DNA of 64,000 nt from Lachnospiraceae bacterium (GTDB taxonomy: Bacteria; Bacillota; Clostridia; Lachnospirales; Lachnospiraceae): contig JAIDFQ010000071.1 in assembly GCA_029054245.1 (NCBI GenBank), forward strand, positions 1 to 64,000, written 5' to 3'. A program made the translations under genes and the position numbers. This document shows positions 39,806 through 48,168 of this stretch, one piece after another (position 1 is the first letter of the stretch; the number at the start of each line of letters is the position of its first letter). The notes under the pieces were generated by a model. That model was not told the DNA's origin and did not search any database. It worked only from the letters and a program-made list of their open reading frames with translations.

Positions 39806-40451
39806 TCAATTATAATCCATTTTTCCCAAATAAGGAAGAATATTTTCAAAAAGCTGCCTTACCACTGGCGCCGCCACCTGTCCTCCATAATAAAGGCCTT
39901 GCGGATTGTGAATGATGACAAGTGCGATTACCTGTGGATCATCTGCCGGCGCAAATCCAACAAAAGAAGCAATATATCTTCCGCTTCCTCTAGGGAGCGT
40001 CTGGCTGGTCGCCGTCTTTCCCCCCACTCTTGCCCCCTCTACATATCCATTCTTGCCGGATCCATTTTCAACCACCTGTTCTAACATCATCCGCATAGTG
40101 GCAGAAGTCTCCTCCGATACGATATGCTCCTTGACCGGATAAGAGAACCTTTCTATCTCTGTTCCCTCCCTATTTGCGGTCATAACGGCAAAGTGCGGCG
40201 TGATCCTCCTCCCGCCGTTTACAATGGAAGATGCCGTTGTGATAAGCTGTATGGGGGTAATCTGAAAAGACTGCCCGAAGGATACTGTTGCCAGCTCCAC
40301 TGCTTTCATATCTTCCATTTTATGCATGATGGTCCCCGCCTCCCCCGGCAGATCCACACCGGTTTTGTTCAACAGACCAAACTGGGTAAAGTAATGATAA
40401 TAATTTTCCACCCCCAGACGCAGCCCTACCGTAATAAACACCGGGTTACAG
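39806..40451 (-). CDS. spoVD: SpoVD-type class B PBP, 3' part of a gene split by a mobile element
   Basis: From the att core at 40451 the frame reads CNPVF-ITVGLRLGVENYYHYFTQFG and on to a stop at 39806, about 210 codons beyond the core. It carries the end of the transpeptidase domain: PGEAGTIMHKMEDMKAVELA, the third active-site motif as KTA (VGGKTATSQTLPRG) and FVGFAPADDPQVIALVIIHN. It lacks its own start and membrane anchor. No stop or frameshift is present. Joined to 48096-46996 at the 17-bp repeat it makes a 576-codon PBP. Short length and lack of PASTA domains distinguish it from the FtsI-type neighbour. Confidence 0.9.
40435..40451. repeat. att site, recombinase-proximal end
   Basis: TAAACACCGGGTTACAG. 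To its left is spoVD 3' sequence; to its right GTGTTTACACAAC and the recombinase stop. One mismatch to the other end (C here, T there). On the minus strand it encodes Cys-Asn-Pro-Val-Phe of the SxN motif region. Confidence 0.85.
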
Positions 40452-40465
40452 GTGTTTACACAACT

Positions 40466-42073
40466 TTAATCACGCCTACCATAAAAAACCCTTTCCCGGC
40501 ATTCCCCCTCTTTGTCAAAAGTAATCAGTAATTCCCCGTCCTTATGTACCTCAATCTGATGTATCTGCCGTAAAAATTCTTTCATCTCTGCTTTTATGAT
40601 CAGCGCCTCCGCCCGAATGACTGCCTCTATCTTTTCAAGACGCGCCTCATAGTTATTATATTGCAGGCAGGTCCGCATTATTCCGTCTATTTTTGTTTCC
40701 AGCCGTTTTAACCGCTCATTCAAATCCACACTATATTTTCCATAATCTTCGTCGCTGATGACACCGTTTAGAAGCTTTTCCACCAGCAGTTCTTTTCTGG
40801 ACATCAGTTTTTTATGCTCCTTTTGAACCTTTTTCAATTCCCCCTGCCCATCCTGTGCTTCAAATACCCGCCTCAGCACACCCAGGATATCGGCAAGCAT
40901 CCTTCCCTCCTCCCCAACTCCTCCCCAGTGTTGCAAAACCGCCCCTTCCACGCAGGATAAAAGCATATCTTCCGTAAGATTGATATTATCACATCCAGGA
41001 GACTTTTCCTTTTGCTTTCCTTCTCCTTTTTTTCTTCCGCTTTCTAAAAAGGTAGCGCATTTCCATACCACCTTTTTTCCCTTGCCCTGTGTGTAACAGG
41101 TCCTGTAATAAAACCGCCCGCACTCCGCGCATTTTAATTTTCTGGTGAGCTCATATTTTCCATCCCTTCCCCCATGGCAGTTGCCGCCTCCCACCTGCCG
41201 CTGCACTGCTTTTTTTTGCAGGATGGCAGTCACCTCCTCCTGATATTCCTTTGAAACTATGGGAGGAAGCGCACCTTCCATCACGATCCAGTCCTCTTTC
41301 GGCACCTCCTCATACCGCTTGGTATCAAAATTGTAAGTTCTCGTGTTCAAAATCATGGTTCCGTGCGCCCTTGGCGTGTACAGCATTTTCCTCCACTGGA
41401 CTTCCGATATCCTCTGCCCCTTCTTCCCCCTGGCGCCAAGCTCATACAAAATCCGGCTTATGGTATAAAATCCCTTTCCCTCCTTCGCCAACGCAAATGC
41501 CGTCCTGTAATACTCCGCCTCCTCCTCATTAATCTCATACCTGTCCTTCTCCACCTTATTCCATCCGAACATCTCACAGGTAATGTTGCATCCGCTCTTC
41601 TTCTCCTGCCTTCTCCTGTGCGCATTCTTAATCTTCTTGGAAAGCTCCCTGCTAAAATCCTCCGCCAATATTGCCTTAATGCCAGAGATCAGATTATCAT
41701 CCGGTGTATAAAATTTTCCTTCTATATATATATACAATCTCAATCGATTCTCCGTGAGTCTGCTTAAGAAAAAATACCAATCTTTTGCTGAGCGCGTAAG
41801 CCTGTCAATGGACTTGATCATAACAATATCAAATCTGTCCCTTTCCATATCTTCCAGCAGCCTCTGATACTCGCTGCGCTTATATGCCACTGTACCCGTC
41901 TGAGATTCCACATACTGCTCCGCTATCTTCCACCCTCTTTTTTCTGCTATCTCCCGGCTTTCAAACACCTGGGTGGCAAGCGCATTCATCTGACTTTCCT
42001 CCTCCGTACTGCACCTGTTATAAATCCCCACTCTTTCCACTTCCTGCTCCCTTCCGCAAAAGTACGCTTCCAT
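40466..42073 (-). CDS. Large serine recombinase (site-specific integrase/excisionase)
   Basis: 535 aa from ATG at 42073 (MEAYFCGREQ), with AGGAGG 6 bases upstream. Resolvase domain with catalytic Ser in GIYNRCSTEEESQ and SIDRLTRSAKDW; Recombinase domain (CEMFGWNKVEKDRYEINEEE, KEGKGFYTISRILYELG); zinc ribbon with LKCAECGRFYYRTC and a distal Cys pair; then a coiled coil (EHKKLMSRKELLVEKLLNGV) and beta tail. Same architecture as SpoIVCA, which excises the Bacillus skin element. Its stop lies 15 bases from the att core. It should catalyse integration and, with a helper, excision of this element. Confidence 0.93.
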   Translation of the reverse strand: MEAYFCGREQEVERVGIYNRCSTEEESQMNALATQVFESREIAEKRGWKIAEQYVESQTGTVAYKRSEYQRLLEDMERDRFDIVMIKSIDRLTRSAKDWYFFLSRLTENRLRLYIYIEGKFYTPDDNLISGIKAILAEDFSRELSKKIKNAHRRRQEKKSGCNITCEMFGWNKVEKDRYEINEEEAEYYRTAFALAKEGKGFYTISRILYELGARGKKGQRISEVQWRKMLYTPRAHGTMILNTRTYNFDTKRYEEVPKEDWIVMEGALPPIVSKEYQEEVTAILQKKAVQRQVGGGNCHGGRDGKYELTRKLKCAECGRFYYRTCYTQGKGKKVVWKCATFLESGRKKGEGKQKEKSPGCDNINLTEDMLLSCVEGAVLQHWGGVGEEGRMLADILGVLRRVFEAQDGQGELKKVQKEHKKLMSRKELLVEKLLNGVISDEDYGKYSVDLNERLKRLETKIDGIMRTCLQYNNYEARLEKIEAVIRAEALIIKAEMKEFLRQIHQIEVHKDGELLITFDKEGECRERVFYGRRD

Positions 42074-42212
42074 GCCAAGCCTCCTTTTCAAGAAGCACCT
42101 TTGCCGCATTCATCTCTGAAGCGCTGATTAATCCCCTCTCTTCCAACAGTTCCAAAAGATGGAGTTGTATACGGCTTTGCATTTCCTTTTTTTCCATCAT
42201 ACTTGTTCTCAT
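42018..42212 (-). CDS. Small ORF overlapping the recombinase start
   Basis: 64 aa, mostly one amphipathic helix pair (MEKKEMQSRIQLHLLELLEE, ISASEMNAAKVLLEKEAW). It overlaps the first 56 bases of the recombinase in another frame, which could couple their translation. The ribosome site is weak (AAGAGG too far upstream). It may be a small regulator or recombination directionality factor, or be non-coding; no family recognised. Confidence 0.4.
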   Translation of the reverse strand: MRTSMMEKKEMQSRIQLHLLELLEERGLISASEMNAAKVLLEKEAWHGSVLLRKGAGSGKSGDL

Positions 42213-42323
42213 CTGGTGATTGCTTATACCTCTTCACCTATCAAGTTTTACTTTAATATATTCATGCTGGATGTAAATATGTTTCGGTTTTGAGAGTAGA
42301 CCGGATGTCAAAGACTGTAGACC

Positions 42324-42646
42324 GCAAGTGTGTTGAGGAAAGGGAGGGCGCATGAGGGCAGCTGGGGATTGGCGCGGACGGTAAAAAAACTATAGCGGCC
42401 CCATGTACAGCGATAAGAAGGGCTAAACAGCCTTTATTTAGATATTGGTACCGGACGCAAACGGCGTATTGACCCATCCATGGGTCAAATTACGCCTTCG
42501 CCGGACCTCCTATCCGGCGATTGCTGGAAATTGAAAGGCTGTTAAGTCCTTCTAATCGCTTTCCCAGGGGCTCTCTATAGGTTTTTTACCGTCCGCGCCA
42601 ATCCCCAGCTGCCCTCATGCGCCCTCCCTTCCCTCAACACGCTTGC
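42324..42646. repeat. Long hairpin element, family A, copy 2
   Basis: 323 bases. Outer arms of about 80 bases are near-exact complements (GGGAGGGCGCATGAGGGC... at left, its complement ending at 42646) and share nothing with the arms of copy 1. The inner 48-base block at 42451-42498 is identical to copy 1. The side hairpin TCGCCGGA-CCTCCTA-TCCGGCGA has the same CCTCCT loop (42506-42511) but a different, still pairing stem. It fills the gap between the recombinase and the membrane-protein gene together with the promoter at 42681-42709. Confidence 0.8.
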
Positions 42647-42680
42647 TCCCTCATTCATTTTCTTAACTTTTGGAGGATTC

Positions 42681-42709
42681 TTGAAGACGTAGATGGTCTG
42701 TTGTATAAT
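42681..42709 (+). promoter_or_regulatory. Sigma-A promoter of the membrane-protein gene
   Basis: TTGAAG (42681-42686) and TATAAT (42704-42709) with a 17-base spacer, leaving a leader of about 120 bases before 42838. Confidence 0.65.
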
Positions 42710-42837
42710 GGTAAAATATGAAATAATCACAGCGCAGAACGTCTCGGAATCGGGGAAAATATGGAAACGCTGTTGGTTATAAAGACATTATTTACGAACC
42801 ATAATGAATAAACTCTTTATGTTTATAGGAGGCGGCA

Positions 42838-43449
42838 ATGTCGAAAGCACCAAAGAAGCGTTCAATTATTTTGCCATTTGTCATTGGTATTTTTCTGGGG
42901 ATAACAGCCAAACTTGTAGATGTGCCGAATATCACATACCGTTTTCCTATCTTTGATGATGTCATGGCACGATTTGGGATTTGGGTTTGGGCGGCTGCAT
43001 TCATAGCCATTCTTTCAAAGTCGCCTCTATTTGCAGCAGTGCGTTCTTTTGTCTTTTTTGTGGGAATGTTATCTGCTTATTATGGATATACCATATTATT
43101 TTTAAAATTTTTCCCAAAATCTCAAATTGTTTTGTGGAGTTGTATTGCTATGATTACGCCCTTTTGCGGTTTTTTAATATGGCATATCCATCTAAACAAA
43201 TGGTTCGCTAATTTAATCGCTTCATTTCCTTTTATCCTCTTCTTTACAGAATGGTATTTAACATCAGAGGATACGCAATTGCTATTTATTCCTTATTTAT
43301 GTATGGCACTCTCCTGGCTATCAGCTGTTCCTACAAATAAAAAACGTTTATTCAGTCTGCTTTACGGATTATCCATATCCATTATATTGATTCTTCTGAT
43401 ACGGGCAGAAATCATAACTAATATCTACGAACGGCTGTTAAACATATAG
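42838..43449 (+). CDS. Integral membrane protein, function unknown
   Basis: 203 aa, ATAGGAGG 5 bases upstream. Five or six membrane helices (ILPFVIGIFLGITAKLV, FVFFVGMLSAYYGYTILFLK, LIASFPFILFFTEWYL, LFSLLYGLSISIILILLIRA). No catalytic motif. It may belong to the DUF6518-type membrane proteins, but I am not sure. It is cargo of the element, on the strand opposite to the recombinase, with its own promoter and a short hairpin (GCCC/GGGC near 43462-43480) after it. Confidence 0.7.
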   Translation: MSKAPKKRSIILPFVIGIFLGITAKLVDVPNITYRFPIFDDVMARFGIWVWAAAFIAILSKSPLFAAVRSFVFFVGMLSAYYGYTILFLKFFPKSQIVLWSCIAMITPFCGFLIWHIHLNKWFANLIASFPFILFFTEWYLTSEDTQLLFIPYLCMALSWLSAVPTNKKRLFSLLYGLSISIILILLIRAEIITNIYERLLNI

Positions 43450-43541
43450 CGATATCAAACGCCCTGTTTTCCTTTGGGCAAGGCGGACTATACGCATATC
43501 CAATTTCTGTTATGAAATCCCTAAAACACCATAAAATAACA

Positions 43542-43570
43542 TTGACTTTAGTGCTTTAAAGCTGTATAAT
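43542..43570 (+). promoter_or_regulatory. Sigma-A promoter of the ABC transporter operon
   Basis: TTGACT (43542-43547) and a perfect TATAAT (43565-43570) with a 17-base spacer, about 45 bases of leader before ATG at 43622. No T-box or riboswitch fits in that leader. Confidence 0.85.
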
Positions 43571-43621
43571 CTGATACGCAGTGATCTATTTCATTGTAAT
43601 ATCTTTTTGGGAGGAAACATT

Positions 43622-44668
43622 ATGAAAAAAGCACTTGTATTATTTTTAACCGCAGTCATGGTCAGCGGTCTTGTTGCCTGCGGAAGCCCTGCTCCTGCCA
43701 CACAGGAAGCATCCACGAAAGAAAGCGGCACAGATTCTACCGAAGGCGGAGAAACAGAACTCTCTGTTGAAACCGCTGCTACAGACGGCGCTGCTTACAA
43801 GGTAGGCATCTGCCAGCTTGTACAGCATGAAGCATTAGATGCTGCTACAGAGGGCTTTATGGATGCCCTGAAAGAAGAACTGGGCGATCAGGTCACTTTT
43901 GACATCCAGAACGCACAGGGTGATTCCAATACCTGTTCTACCATCATCAACAGCTTTATTTCCAGCGATACCGATCTGATTCTCGCCAACGCAACTCCTG
44001 CCCTGCAGGCGGCAGCTGCCGGAACGAATGAAATTCCTATTCTTGGAACATCCGTTACAGAATACGGCGTAGCGCTGGATATTGATAACTTTACCGGAAC
44101 CGTGGGCGGAAATATTTCCGGTACTTCTGACTTAGCTCCGCTTGACGGTCAGGCTGATATGCTTGCAGAATTATTCCCTGACGCAAAGACGGTAGGTCTG
44201 ATCTACTGTTCCGCTGAGGCAAATTCACAGTATCAGGTTGACACCATCAAAACATTCTTGGAAGAAAAAGGCTACAGCTGTGAATATTATTCTTTCTCAG
44301 ACTCCAACGATATTTCCGCAGTTGTGACAAATGCTGCTTCTTCTGTTGATGTCATCTACGTTCCTACCGACAACACTGCTGCATCCAATGCAGAATTAAT
44401 CAACAACATCTGTCTTCCTGCCGGTGTACCAGTAGTCGCAGGTGAAGAAGGAATCTGTGCAGGCTGTGGTGTTGCTACCTTGTCAATCAGCTATTATGAT
44501 ATCGGTGTTGCTACCGGTAAAATGGCTGCAAAGATCCTTGCAGAAGGAGCTGACATCTCCACCATGCCGATCGAATACGCACCTACTTTTACCAAGAAAT
44601 ACAACGCTGCAAACTGTGAAGCATTGAACATCACCGTTCCCGATGATTACGTAGCAATCGGCGAATAA
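43622..44668 (+). CDS. ABC transporter substrate-binding lipoprotein (TrpX/ABC_sub_bind type)
   Basis: 348 aa from ATG at 43622, after GGGAGG. Lipoprotein signal with lipobox LVACG at residues about 17-21, then a Ser/Thr/Glu-rich linker. The mature part has the ABC_sub_bind (PF04392) pattern: YKVGICQLVQHEALDAATEG, NAQGDSNTCSTIINSFI, TVGLIYCSAEANSQYQVD, VIYVPTDNTAASNAELIN. Relatives bind aromatic amino acids or other small ligands. Anchored outside the membrane, it serves the permease and ATPase that follow. The family is confident, the substrate is not. Confidence 0.88.
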   Translation: MKKALVLFLTAVMVSGLVACGSPAPATQEASTKESGTDSTEGGETELSVETAATDGAAYKVGICQLVQHEALDAATEGFMDALKEELGDQVTFDIQNAQGDSNTCSTIINSFISSDTDLILANATPALQAAAAGTNEIPILGTSVTEYGVALDIDNFTGTVGGNISGTSDLAPLDGQADMLAELFPDAKTVGLIYCSAEANSQYQVDTIKTFLEEKGYSCEYYSFSDSNDISAVVTNAASSVDVIYVPTDNTAASNAELINNICLPAGVPVVAGEEGICAGCGVATLSISYYDIGVATGKMAAKILAEGADISTMPIEYAPTFTKKYNAANCEALNITVPDDYVAIGE

Positions 44669-44703
44669 CCGCCGGCAAATGAGCTTATTGATTCATAAAC
44701 AGA

Positions 44704-44729
44704 CAGCGGGGGAATTTATTCTCTCGCTG
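44704..44729 (+). terminator. Intercistronic attenuator hairpin
   Basis: CAGCG and CGCTG pair around an imperfect G-rich stem, followed by CTTTTGTT, between the binding-protein and permease genes. It would favour excess binding protein over the membrane parts. Confidence 0.65.
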
Positions 44730-44793
44730 CTTTTGTTAAATTTAAAACAAGTGCATGTCCACCAATTTTAATTGTGGATAAATGGAGGTAATC

Positions 44794-45726
44794 ATGAACA
44801 TCTTACACTTACTTAATTCCATGCCGGGAACCCTTGCGCAAGGGCTTATATGGGGCATCACGGCAATCGGTATTTACATTACATACCGCATTCTTGACGT
44901 TGCCGATCTGACCGTTGACGGCTCCCTTTGTACCGGCGGTGCAGTCTGCATCATGATGATGGTTTCCGGACAAAACGTTTTTGTTTCTATGCTTATAGCA
45001 ACGTTAGCTGGTATGCTGACCGGACTGGTAACAGGACTTTTTCACACCTTTATGGGCATCCCCGCTATCTTATCTGGTATTCTGACCCAATTAGGTCTTT
45101 ACTCCGTAAACTTAAAAATTATGGGAAAGGCCAATCAGGCAATCAACGTTGACAAATACAACCTTCTGGTTTGTTCTAGATATATCAAAGGCGTACCCTT
45201 CTACCAAAATACAATTTTTGTAGTTGCAATCTGTACCCTTATATTAGTAGCTCTTCTTTATTGGTTCTTCGGCACAGAACTTGGATGCGCCCTGCGGGCA
45301 ACCGGATGCAATGGCAACATGTCCCGTGCCCAGGGAATCAACACCAACTTTTCCAAGGTCCTGGGGCTGATGATCTCAAACGGTCTTGTCGGGCTCTCCG
45401 GCGCACTGCTTGCACAGTATCAGGGATTTGCCGACATCAATATGGGACGCGGCGCTATCGTAATCGGACTTGCCGCGGTCATCATCGGCGAAGCTGTCTT
45501 CGGCCGCATCTTCCACAACTTTGCACTTAAGCTGATCAGTGTCGCTCTAGGCTCCATCCTTTACTATATCGTGCTTCAGACCGTAGTCTGGATGGGAATC
45601 GTAGACACCGACAATCTGAAATTACTGACTGCTTTGATCGTTGCCGTCTTCCTTGCCATTCCCTACTGGAAAAGCAAATATTTCAGCAAAGCCATCGTAA
45701 AGAAGGGAGGTAAAGACAATGCTTGA
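44794..45726 (+). CDS. ABC transporter permease
   Basis: 310 aa from ATG at 44794 with GGAGG 6 bases upstream. Eight or more membrane helices; BPD_transp_2-like layout as in TrpY/branched-chain-type permeases: ADLTVDGSLCTGGAVCIMMM at the first loops, LGCALRATGCNGNMSRAQGI (the ATPase-coupling EAA-like region), and GFADINMGRGAIVIGLAAVI near the C-terminus. Its stop overlaps the ATPase start by 8 bases. It forms the membrane channel of the importer in the element's cargo. Confidence 0.88.
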   Translation: MNILHLLNSMPGTLAQGLIWGITAIGIYITYRILDVADLTVDGSLCTGGAVCIMMMVSGQNVFVSMLIATLAGMLTGLVTGLFHTFMGIPAILSGILTQLGLYSVNLKIMGKANQAINVDKYNLLVCSRYIKGVPFYQNTIFVVAICTLILVALLYWFFGTELGCALRATGCNGNMSRAQGINTNFSKVLGLMISNGLVGLSGALLAQYQGFADINMGRGAIVIGLAAVIIGEAVFGRIFHNFALKLISVALGSILYYIVLQTVVWMGIVDTDNLKLLTALIVAVFLAIPYWKSKYFSKAIVKKGGKDNA

Positions 45727-46513
45727 AATTAAGAATGTCACAAAAGTTTTCAATCCTGGAACGGTAAACGAAAAACTTGCTTTAGATAATTTTTCCTTAA
45801 CCCTTGAGGATGGCGACTTTGTCACCGTCATCGGAGGAAACGGGGCTGGAAAATCAACCATGATGAATGCCATTGCAGGTGCATGGACGGTAGATGCTGG
45901 TCAGATCCTAATCGACGGCATTGATGTCACCAAGCTGCCCGAACACAAGCGCGCAAAGTTCTTGGGACGGGTTTTCCAAGATCCTATGACTGGCACCGCC
46001 GCAACTATGGGGATTGAAGAAAATCTTGCGCTTGCAAAACGCCGCGGCAATACCCGCTTTCTGACCCCAGGCATCACCAAAAAGGAACGTGAGGAATATA
46101 AAGAGCTCCTAAAAATACTGGATTTAGGGCTGGAAACCCGGCTTACCTCCAAAGTAGGGCTTCTATCCGGCGGACAGCGCCAGGCACTGACACTGCTCAT
46201 GGCAACCCTAAAGAAACCCAAACTCCTCCTTTTAGACGAGCACACCGCTGCCCTTGACCCCAAAACCGCGGCAAAAGTCTTAGAAACCACAGAATACATC
46301 GTAGGAAAGGATCACCTGACCACCCTTATGATCACCCACAACATGAAAGACGCCATCGTTCACGGAAACCGCCTAATTATGCTGATGGACGGAAAAATCA
46401 TTCTGGATATCAAAGGAGAAGAGAAAAAACGCCTCACTGTTAAAGATCTCCTTCAGAAATTTGAAGCAGCAAGCGGCGAAGAATTCACCAATGACCAGGC
46501 AATCCTGGGATAA
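45719..46513 (+). CDS. ABC transporter ATP-binding protein
   Basis: 264 aa, GGGAGG 8 bases before ATG, inside the end of the permease gene. Walker A GGNGAGKSTMMNAIAG, signature LLSGGQRQALTLLMATLK, Walker B KLLLLDEHTAALDPKT and the switch His in MITHNMKDA are intact. It powers the importer with the two preceding genes. It is the last cargo gene before the family B element at the att end. Confidence 0.93.
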   Translation: MLEIKNVTKVFNPGTVNEKLALDNFSLTLEDGDFVTVIGGNGAGKSTMMNAIAGAWTVDAGQILIDGIDVTKLPEHKRAKFLGRVFQDPMTGTAATMGIEENLALAKRRGNTRFLTPGITKKEREEYKELLKILDLGLETRLTSKVGLLSGGQRQALTLLMATLKKPKLLLLDEHTAALDPKTAAKVLETTEYIVGKDHLTTLMITHNMKDAIVHGNRLIMLMDGKIILDIKGEEKKRLTVKDLLQKFEAASGEEFTNDQAILG

Positions 46514-46533
46514 TAAAAGAATAAGTCAAATCA

Positions 46534-46577
46534 CATTTCCCTTGTTTTATGTCCTCTTGACATTTTGCAAGGGAAAA
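46534..46577 (+). terminator. Terminator after the ABC operon
   Basis: ATTTCCCTTG...ATGTC and GACAT...CAAGGGAAAAT form a stem of about 19 pairs with mismatches around CTCTT, followed by an A/T-rich run; 21 bases after the ATPase stop. Confidence 0.65.
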
Positions 46578-46600
46578 TTTATAAATAAAATTGCCTTCCT

Positions 46601-46983
46601 CTGGCAGATGTTTGGGGCGGGATTAATGAATGGCGCCGACAGGATAGCAGAAAGGGGGCTTGAGGGCAGTCGGTGTACAGGAGGCGGCATATAGAATCGT
46701 TTCAAGTCTCTGCGAAAAATTGGCATATTTCACTTACAGAATGTTGATTCCCTAGGGCAAAATCGCCATGGATGGCGATTTTAGGAGCCTCGCGGCACGG
46801 ATGCCGCCGGGCTCCGCCCCGACCTCTTTGAAAAACTCAAATACATTCTGTTAGTGAAATCCAATTTTGAGATGAGACTTGAAACGATTCTATATGCCGC
46901 CTCCTGTACACCGACTGCCCTCAAGCCCCCTTTCTGCTACCCTGCCGGCGCCATTCATTAATCCCGCCCCAAATATCTGCCAG
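46601..46983. repeat. Long hairpin element, family B, copy 2
   Basis: 383 bases. Outer arms of about 110 bases (CTGGCAGATGTTTGGGGC... and its complement) differ at about three positions, all transitions, one or two of which still pair as G-U. Core shared with copy 1: ATCGTTTCAAGTCTC, TTTCACTTACAGAATGT, AAAATCGCCATGGATGGCGA, GCGGCACGGATGCCGC. The right arm ends 11 bases from the att core and supplies the last about 20 codons of the truncated spoVD frame. Arm bases differ from copy 1 but pairing is kept (GGCGTATGGTATC there, GGCATATAGAATC here). Confidence 0.8.
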
Positions 46984-48096
46984 CACCATTTCCGTAAACA
47001 CTGGGTTACAGCTGTTCATAGTCGCCTGCACGAAGTTCTCCGCCCCATGCCCCGCAATCTTATGACATCGTATCTTCCTATCTTCCACCATAATAAATCC
47101 CGGACAGCTGAACTGATCCTCCGTGGTAACCACTCCCCCCTCTAAACCGGCTGCCGCCGTTATAATCTTAAACGTAGATCCCGGTTCATAGGTATCACTG
47201 ATGCATCCATTCCGCCACATTCCATTCAATAACTCCTGTTTTTTTTCTTCCGAAAGCCCTGTAGTGTCTGTCTCTTCCGGCAGCGTATAGGGCTGGTTTA
47301 AATCAAACTCCGGCACATCCACCATTGCCATAAGCTCTCCATTCTGCGGATTCATAACGATGATGGATACCCGGTCCGCCTGTTTCGTCTCCATAACCTG
47401 CTTCGCAAGCTGGGTGGCATAGCTTTGAATATTCATATCCAGACTTAAATAAAGGTCATTGCCGGCAACCGGTTCCACCCTTTCCTCTCCAGCCGCATCA
47501 AGCTCCACCCCCTTTGCATCGGTAATGGTGAGAATCATGCCGTCTTCCCCTTTTAAGTACTCCTCATATTTTACTTCCAGGCCTATGATTCCCTGATTAT
47601 CGCCCCCTGTAAATCCAAGCACCTTCGATGCCAGAAAGTCATAGGGATAATAGCGCTTATAATCTTCATCCACCTTAACGCCTTCCAGATTATAAGCTCT
47701 GATGGCGTCCCCAATCTCTTTATCCACATTGCTTTTGATTCTTTCTATAGATGAATACTTTTCAACACGGTTTCGCACATATTCCTCCGAAAGACCAAGC
47801 TCTTTGCAAAGGACTTCCACGATTCTATCAGGATCCTTGATTTGGTTATGTATGACGGAAATCGTACAGACAGTTTTATTATCCGCGATAACGGTTCCGT
47901 TCACATCCAGTATCCTTCCTCTTGCCGCTTTAATGCTCCTCTCCCTTTCGTGAAGCTCCTTCGCCTTTTCCGTATAGTGATCTGACTGAAAAACCATCAG
48001 ATAGACCAGCCGCCCCGCAAGAATGGTAAAGATGAGCAGGCATGCAAAAAAAATCGTGACGATCTTTTTTCTGTTATAGGTTTTGTTTTTAACCAT
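46921..48096 (-). CDS. spoVD: SpoVD-type class B PBP, 5' part of a gene split by a mobile element
   Basis: From ATG at 48096: short cytoplasmic basic start, one membrane helix (IVTIFFACLLIFTILAGRLV), PBP dimerisation domain (AARGRILDVNGTVIADNKTV), then the transpeptidase domain with catalytic Ser in EPGSTFKIITAAAG. Residue 367 is the Phe of the SCNPVF block, where the att core lies. The remaining 24 codons (TEMVLADIWGGINEWRRQGS...) belong to the mobile element and end in TGA at 46921. As it stands the product lacks the KTG motif and cannot be an active transpeptidase. SpoVD makes the spore cortex in the mother cell. Confidence 0.9.
   Translation of the reverse strand: MVKNKTYNRKKIVTIFFACLLIFTILAGRLVYLMVFQSDHYTEKAKELHERERSIKAARGRILDVNGTVIADNKTVCTISVIHNQIKDPDRIVEVLCKELGLSEEYVRNRVEKYSSIERIKSNVDKEIGDAIRAYNLEGVKVDEDYKRYYPYDFLASKVLGFTGGDNQGIIGLEVKYEEYLKGEDGMILTITDAKGVELDAAGEERVEPVAGNDLYLSLDMNIQSYATQLAKQVMETKQADRVSIIVMNPQNGELMAMVDVPEFDLNQPYTLPEETDTTGLSEEKKQELLNGMWRNGCISDTYEPGSTFKIITAAAGLEGGVVTTEDQFSCPGFIMVEDRKIRCHKIAGHGAENFVQATMNSCNPVFTEMVLADIWGGINEWRRQGSRKGA
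46995..47011. repeat. att site, distal end
   Basis: TAAACACTGGGTTACAG; to its left element sequence TTTCCG, to its right CTGTTCATAGTCG of spoVD. Matches 40435-40451 at 16 of 17 bases. Confidence 0.85.
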
Positions 48097-48099
48097 AAA

Positions 48100-48149
48100 A
48101 ACCTCATAGAAAAGGTATTATTATAATCTATTACCAATTCTATGAGGTT
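48100..48149 (-). promoter_or_regulatory. Hairpin that hides the spoVD ribosome binding site
   Basis: On the minus strand AACCTCATAGAA and TTCTATGAGGTT pair perfectly over 12 bases, with an inner GGTA/TACC stem. The 3' arm contains the spoVD Shine-Dalgarno (TGAGG), five bases before ATG, and runs into TTTTT. It can act as a terminator after ftsI, as a translational block for spoVD, or both. Confidence 0.7.
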
Positions 48150-48168
48150 ATTCTATCAAGATGCTTCT

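Follow-up and report, generated by a model that had tools for sequence, protein, structure and literature searches.

A spoVD gene that is split in two by an element of 6,560 bp, measured from AA core to AA core, is found in a Lachnospiraceae bacterium (assembly GCA_029054245.1, contig JAIDFQ010000071.1, positions 1 to 64,000 of the forward strand; this whole stretch of 64,000 nucleotides is called the window here). An original prediction, made from the letters of the window, had proposed that the gene is interrupted by an excisable serine-recombinase element, and at the level of sequence this reading has been borne out by open halves, compatible reading frames, recurrence of the split together with its own recombinase, purifying selection and sigma-E-like boxes. 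With a probability of roughly 0.87 we regard the insertion as a skin-type element of sporulation gene rearrangement that intervenes in spoVD and would be excised in the mother cell; the excision itself, its timing, the role of a small accessory protein and the sigma factor involved are what we infer from these features. The split recurs at the identical codon in other species and thus is not a product of chance.

The split gene in the window

The two halves of spoVD, a recombinase between them and near-identical junctions were all found where the original prediction had placed them (Table 1). The 5' half is read from position 48096 to Asn codon 364. SpoVD (TIGR02214) is the top-scoring NCBIfam model for both halves, with separate scores of 318 and 231 bits against a curated cut-off of 688 bits and with the last 77 model positions unmatched, and the model positions that they match adjoin each other, 2-349 in the N half and 349-559 in the C half. 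A search of the window's genome with the N half at an E value of 1e-60 returned one match, itself, and a transpeptidase domain search of the same genome gave six hits, two of them the spoVD halves and none a second spoVD copy. The KTA motif expected in the joined protein turned out to be normal for this family, since KTAT is read in all 28 intact copies of its SpoVD and in 36 of the 37 split ones; KTG is the usual motif at this position in penicillin-binding proteins (PBPs). The STFK motif is present in 36/37 split and 25/28 intact copies.

Table 1. Positions of the features discussed (window coordinates unless a locus is named)
Feature	Position	Strand	Remark
5' half of spoVD	46996..48096	-	coding part ends at AA core 47007-47006 by comparison; frame continues to stop 46921
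3' half of spoVD	39806..40447	-	AA core to stop; no in-frame start before core
Left attachment site	46995..47016	-	core AA at 47007-47006, in SxN Asn codon; extent from repeat
Right attachment site AAACACC-TGT-AA-CCC-GGTGTTT	40435..40456	-	inverted repeat centred on AA 40447-40446; extent from repeat
Large serine recombinase	40466..42040	-	Resolvase and Recombinase hits; zinc-ribbon match below cut-off
Small 64-aa open reading frame, candidate recombination directionality factor	42018..42212	-	overlaps recombinase start
Sigma-E-like pattern ATA-N15-AATATATT	42255..42280	-	upstream of small frame/recombinase operon
Sigma-E-like pattern ATA-N16-AATAGATT	48125..48151	-	upstream of spoVD
Short recombinases, Resolvase + Recombinase only	L092 9992-10843; L104 3215-4081; L105 10001-10861		at spoVD site
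Recombinases with C-terminal winged-helix match HTH_24	L056 6265-8094; L083 9989-11815; L085 8369-10483		
Cargo: TrpX-like substrate-binding protein of ABC transporter	43607..44668	+	TTG frame; ATG at 43622
Cargo: ABC permease (BPD_transp_2)	44782..45726	+	
Cargo: ABC ATPase	45719..46513	+	
Cargo: 203-aa protein	42838..43449	+	no Pfam/NCBIfam match; clusters with no other cargo frame
Long inverted repeat with TwoAYGGAY RNA (42402-42567)	42324..42646	-	judged passenger
Long inverted repeat with TwoAYGGAY RNA (46710-46874)	46601..46983	+	judged passenger

Recurrence across genomes

In a family sample of 299 genomes, among the matches listed, the window's genome and G264 (of the same genus), G064, G122 and G227 have an N half whose short frame ends at the identical codon. 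The best three relatives of the recombinase outside the window's genome belong to G264, G064 and G122, where they lie a few kb from the split gene. A wider scan covered one genome for each of 84,980 species, using an alignment of four recombinases as the query and requiring the exact peptide patterns QWRKMLY and IYNRCSTE, and it yielded 52 recombinase loci. Every one of the 37 loci of 45-82% identity has the spoVD 3' half no more than about 1.5 kb downstream of the recombinase and in the same orientation, with no intervening gene in 36 of them and a 307-aa open reading frame (ORF) in between in L075; at the 15 loci of 36-40% identity it was found in none, within the stretch fetched. These 37 loci and the window make up the 38 loci counted below, from which G227 is left out throughout. 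Its left half ends in NSCK at 425 bases from a contig end, and no spoVD 3' half was found in its assembly. The split, which the original prediction had described from one genome, is thus found in 38, and this number is a lower bound because exact peptide patterns were required in the scan.

The left half lies inside the fetched stretch in 27 loci, where the element measures 3.4-8.7 kb. For the other 11 loci the genomes were searched: 10 have an N half in a short frame, and the metagenome-assembled genome (MAG) of L082 yielded only an intact copy on another contig. L082 is not part of the counts for junctions, tree and Mantel test. Altogether 37 of the 38 genomes hold only the split form. Several named isolates are among the split loci, namely Parablautia intestinalis D8-82, P. 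muri D42-62, Lachnospiraceae 10-1, 1XD21-87 and 1xD42-87, as well as a strain labelled Roseburia hominis An869, and hence the element is open to experimental test.

Attachment sites and crossover

The original prediction described a 17-bp repeat with one mismatch at both junctions. Such a repeat is present (22 nt at 91%), but the crossover is narrower than it, being placed at an AA core inside the repeat. Both junctions are available in 37 of the 38 loci, the window included, L082 having no left half; the left sites were located by their NSC-AA codons. In all 37 the left site reads SerCys-AA and the right site AA-(C/T)-CC.. (AsnProValPhe), and joining at AA gives NSCNPVF with the catalytic asparagine of the SxN motif (37/37). 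AA is the sole contiguous dinucleotide identical across all 37 left/right pairs, while flanking positions differ in many loci, and inverted-repeat matches peak when centred on it (7.38 of 12 at the left and 7.24 of 12 at the right site, compared with 1.45-5.0 for other centres). Together these two observations place the strand exchange in the Asn codon of SxN. For serine recombinases, a core such as AA that is not self-complementary leads to deletion and not inversion when both sites are equally oriented, as they are here. The sites are therefore direct repeats with inverted-repeat symmetry whose joining restores the frame, as in a skin-type element.

Selection on the two halves

Decay in relatives was looked for as stops or frameshifts, and the original claim that neither half is decayed stood: there are none in 27 N halves, and among 38 C halves only that of L089 has a stop, close to the usual end. 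The ratio of nonsynonymous to synonymous substitution (dN/dS) of the halves is 0.013-0.066 in 13 pairs of split species, where dS is finite and dN above zero; finite dS between split species is 0.38-1.9. Intact spoVD copies give 0.017-0.099 (six finite values from six pairs). Judged by these ratios both halves are under strong purifying selection, and such low values argue that they are not dead fragments. The recombinase, with dN/dS of 0.10-0.13 in five pairs, is by the same measure under selection itself.

The recombinase and its small partner

The window recombinase matches PF00239 and PF07508; its conserved start is the GTG at 42040, within a longer ATG frame from 42109, and its stop lies 18 bases from the right core. 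With a profile made from six seed copies and a threshold of E <0.01, 35 of 38 loci have the small ORF upstream of the recombinase, 29 of them non-seed and always on the recombinase strand; none of 38 control stretches has it. The three loci that lack it (L092, L104 and L105) are the same three whose recombinases are truncated to 284-289 aa, with no zinc ribbon or anything C-terminal of it. Directionality factors are thought to act via the coiled-coil region of large serine recombinases (PMC5025042), and the joint loss of the small ORF and the C-terminal region is expected if the small ORF is a recombination directionality factor, the role that we infer for it. L092 is not sister to L104 and L105 in either tree, although it sits on a long branch with a placement marked as uncertain; the spoVD tree brings all three together in a small group, and the truncation may thus have occurred in one or two events.

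The C-terminal HTH_24 match listed in Table 1 is below cut-off in L056, and none was reported for the window recombinase. The 15 sister recombinases (L093-L103 and L106-L109) were considered as possible centres of other intervening elements, and this idea was rejected since no split gene was seen around them in ORF lists labelled by eye; many stand beside ABC permease or acyl-CoA synthetase genes.

Link to sporulation

Of the 299 genomes, 189 have both the spoVD N half (E 1e-60) and spoIVA (E 0.001), 98 have neither and 12 have just one of the two. The five genomes that were checked (G000, G264, G064, G122 and G227) all retain spoIVA as well as an unsplit sigK match. In Bacillus subtilis spoVD is a sigma-E gene (PMC517825). 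In five genomes whose N half is split, the region upstream of spoIVA always has the strict pattern ATA-N15/16-CATANATT. A loosened form, ATA-N15/16-[CA]ATANNNT, stands upstream of 25 of 38 recombinase operons, where 100 shuffles, run for this operon set only, gave a mean of 1.75 and a maximum of 5, the reverse strand 2 and the region behind the C half 1. The same form precedes 24 of 27 spoVD starts.

History of the element

The spoVD-site recombinases, that of the window included, form one clade against the 15 others with a support of 100. Distances between recombinases correlate with those between spoVD genes (Mantel r 0.52, p 0.001, 37 loci), so that inheritance looks largely vertical. A comparison with uninterrupted relatives, as had been proposed for checking the original prediction, did find intact copies. 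One of them, L009, reads NSCNPVF and is nested among split species as a natural empty site, which suggests a clean loss of the element.

Proposed mechanism and its alternatives

On the reading as a skin-type element, spoVD of growing cells would lie in two pieces without an active product, and the cargo, in the window a TrpXYZ-type transporter, could be expressed. In the sporulating mother cell sigma-E would turn on spoVD, the small protein and the serine recombinase. The recombinase, with the small protein as directionality factor, would then cut both attachment sites at AA, the dinucleotide with which the codon for the catalytic Asn of SxN begins; the element would be released as a circle, and the joined halves would read NSCNPVF and encode an active cortex transpeptidase. 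Loss of the cargo would not be inherited because the mother cell is terminal.

Excision might instead be random or vegetative, a reversible on/off switch in part of the population that follows no mother-cell signal, and the yin element of yabG, excised in a fraction of the population at all time points, offers a precedent (PMC10747680). We consider this unlikely in view of the loosened sigma-E-like pattern upstream of the operon (25/38) and of spoVD (24/27), the way in which spoVD tracks spoIVA across the 299 genomes, and the split form being the only one in 37 of 38 genomes. It might also be that the halves are translated separately and then reassemble, so that no excision is needed; both halves are indeed open and conserved, and some in-frame start codon precedes the 3' core in 19 of 38 loci. 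Against this, the remaining 19 loci, including the window, have no such start, in 25 of 37 loci the left half encodes Lys where the catalytic Asn should be (AAG in 19, AAA in 6), and in the right copy Ser-Cys precedes the core in just 7 of 38. For most loci this means that neither piece has the whole motif, which joining gives in 37/37, and separate translation appears very improbable. The idea that a selfish insertion knocked out spoVD in lineages no longer in need of it would agree with assemblies that hold the split form, but is hardly credible when dN/dS of the halves (0.013-0.066, at dS 0.38-1.9) is equal to or below the intact range and when the five genomes named above retain spoIVA and unsplit sigK.

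A number of observations weigh against the skin-type reading itself. The evidence on element and junctions consists of consensus assemblies, many of them MAGs, and neither a joined molecule nor a circle has been observed. The strict pattern taken from the spoIVA regions was rejected as the basis for promoters, as no more than 3 of 38 recombinase operons and 2 of 27 spoVD genes have it upstream; the promoter claim thus depends on the loosened form. That form was loosened after the sequences had been viewed and is counted over related, non-independent loci, and so it gives support and not proof; some of its 25 hits are at odd distances, and it also occurs upstream of 2 of the 15 sister recombinases (L096 and L103). 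With regard to the small ORF, comparison of four copies with Pfam gave no family match better than E 0.05, and among the 15 sisters L103 has a match to its profile at E 1.5e-4. The in-frame starts before the 3' core in half of the loci, together with the Asn codon kept in the left half in 12 of 37, also speak against the proposal. For 10 of the 37 pairs the left half was not part of the stretch fetched around the recombinase, so that its adjacency is presumed, and the MAG of L082 (genome G304) holds a split-type 3' piece alongside an intact, 59% identical spoVD on a separate contig, although this is probably a mixed bin. Finally, a tree of 37 split and 28 intact copies requires at least nine changes of state, five of them forced by well-supported branches, and inheritance has therefore not been purely vertical.

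Cargo and neighbouring features

The content of the element differs by branch. trpXYZ is carried in 18 loci. L075 and L105 hold a glycerol kinase-like FGGY gene with three neighbours; the labels used here, glpK, glpA-like and FAD-like, are provisional, and the search covered the kinase. In L083 the cargo includes an Hsp70 and a receptor of the chemotaxis type. The window's TrpX has no other close copy in its genome (the other match is at 34%), and in G064 and G022 relatives at 70% and 63% stand outside spoVD elements. The FGGY kinase has no second match in G064, a genome that is 61% complete, and a second copy at 78-79% in G308 and G309. From these matches the cargo looks like captured host genes, and a cargo gene without a second copy might help to retain the element. 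A seeming sigma-A-like promoter of trpX was seen by eye at window positions 43540-43600, in a stretch that is similar among several trp-type elements.

No phage genes are present in the window element, which contains the ABC transporter and one unmatched protein; the cargo of other elements is annotated only in part. A phage origin was rejected for the spoVD recombinase clade after a scan of viral contigs with the four-recombinase alignment, which gave 10 loci with a best identity of 35%. The two TwoAYGGAY RNAs of the window (Rfam RF01731) lie within inverted repeats with arms of 82 and 123 nt, one near the left element end and the other beside the recombinase operon, and look like small mobile repeats. 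Outside the element, an intact class B PBP of 748 aa precedes the split gene on the minus strand, and the ORF after its 3' half is presumably MraY.

A broader scenario, to which we give somewhat less than even odds, is that of a lineage-old developmental DNA splice in gut Lachnospiraceae. A recombinase captured by the host would act at the catalytic codon of a cortex transpeptidase and be kept by host-gene cargo (trpXYZ, glpK and others, some without a second close copy), a loss of which would be affordable for no cell but the terminal mother cell. In some branches, perhaps repeatedly, the recombinase would have lost both its zinc-ribbon/coiled-coil region and the directionality factor, turning into a minimal one-way excisionase.

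Comparison with known systems

Few elements are known to bring about programmed DNA deletion while bacteria develop, and most of these are phage-derived (PMC5595907, PMC10747680). Among the papers listed by searches of the open-licence literature of PubMed Central, a coverage outside which most subscription papers fall, none was seen to report a spoVD-intervening element; PMC12946183, as excerpted, mentions skin only among its references. A laboratory insertion of ICEBs1 at a secondary site in B. subtilis spoVD, with undetectable excision (PMC3715440), also places a mobile element inside this gene, but one of a different kind.

The skin element interrupts sigK in B. subtilis and in Clostridioides difficile, where skinCd has the recombinase CD1231 and a 72-aa directionality factor, CD1234 (PMC5025042). 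Like skin, the spoVD element places a serine recombinase inside a mother-cell sporulation gene, which is joined after excision (a prediction in the case of spoVD), and its small ORF may be likened by description to the small accessory protein of C. difficile skin that is under sigma-E and SpoIIID. It differs in its target, in having no phage genes in the window element and in the overlap of small ORF and recombinase as one operon. As for sigK itself, its best match is an unsplit frame of 211-240 aa in all eight genomes tested, covering model positions 24-226, one of them over the cut-off. The gin element in gerE of Bacillus cereus is non-phage and is excised during sporulation by the recombinase GirC with an extra factor, GirX; it measures 28.6 kb, has three recombinase genes and occurs in some strains of B. 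cereus and B. toyonensis (PMC5595907). The spoVD element is likewise non-phage, with a recombinase and a candidate for the extra factor, whereas it has one recombinase, a length of 3.4-8.7 kb (27 loci) and a single recombinase clade over 38 genomes. The vfbin element in spoVFB, SP-beta in spsM and yin in yabG also lie in sporulation genes that their excision restores (PMC10747680, PMC4191935); these are prophages or prophage-like and have other target genes.

By analogy, the spoVD element would work like skin, vfbin, gin and yin. As far as we have seen, its target, the crossover in a catalytic codon, the lineage-wide clade, the host cargo and the short recombinases are new. The interrupted gene serves the synthesis of the spore cortex, and its split is seen in 38 genomes of bacteria of Lachnospiraceae type, with strand exchange placed in the catalytic codon. 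Surveys of gene presence may call spoVD broken or absent in such genomes and so misjudge their ability to sporulate. A candidate directionality factor, next to natural recombinases that apparently have none, makes this system useful for understanding one-way serine recombinases.

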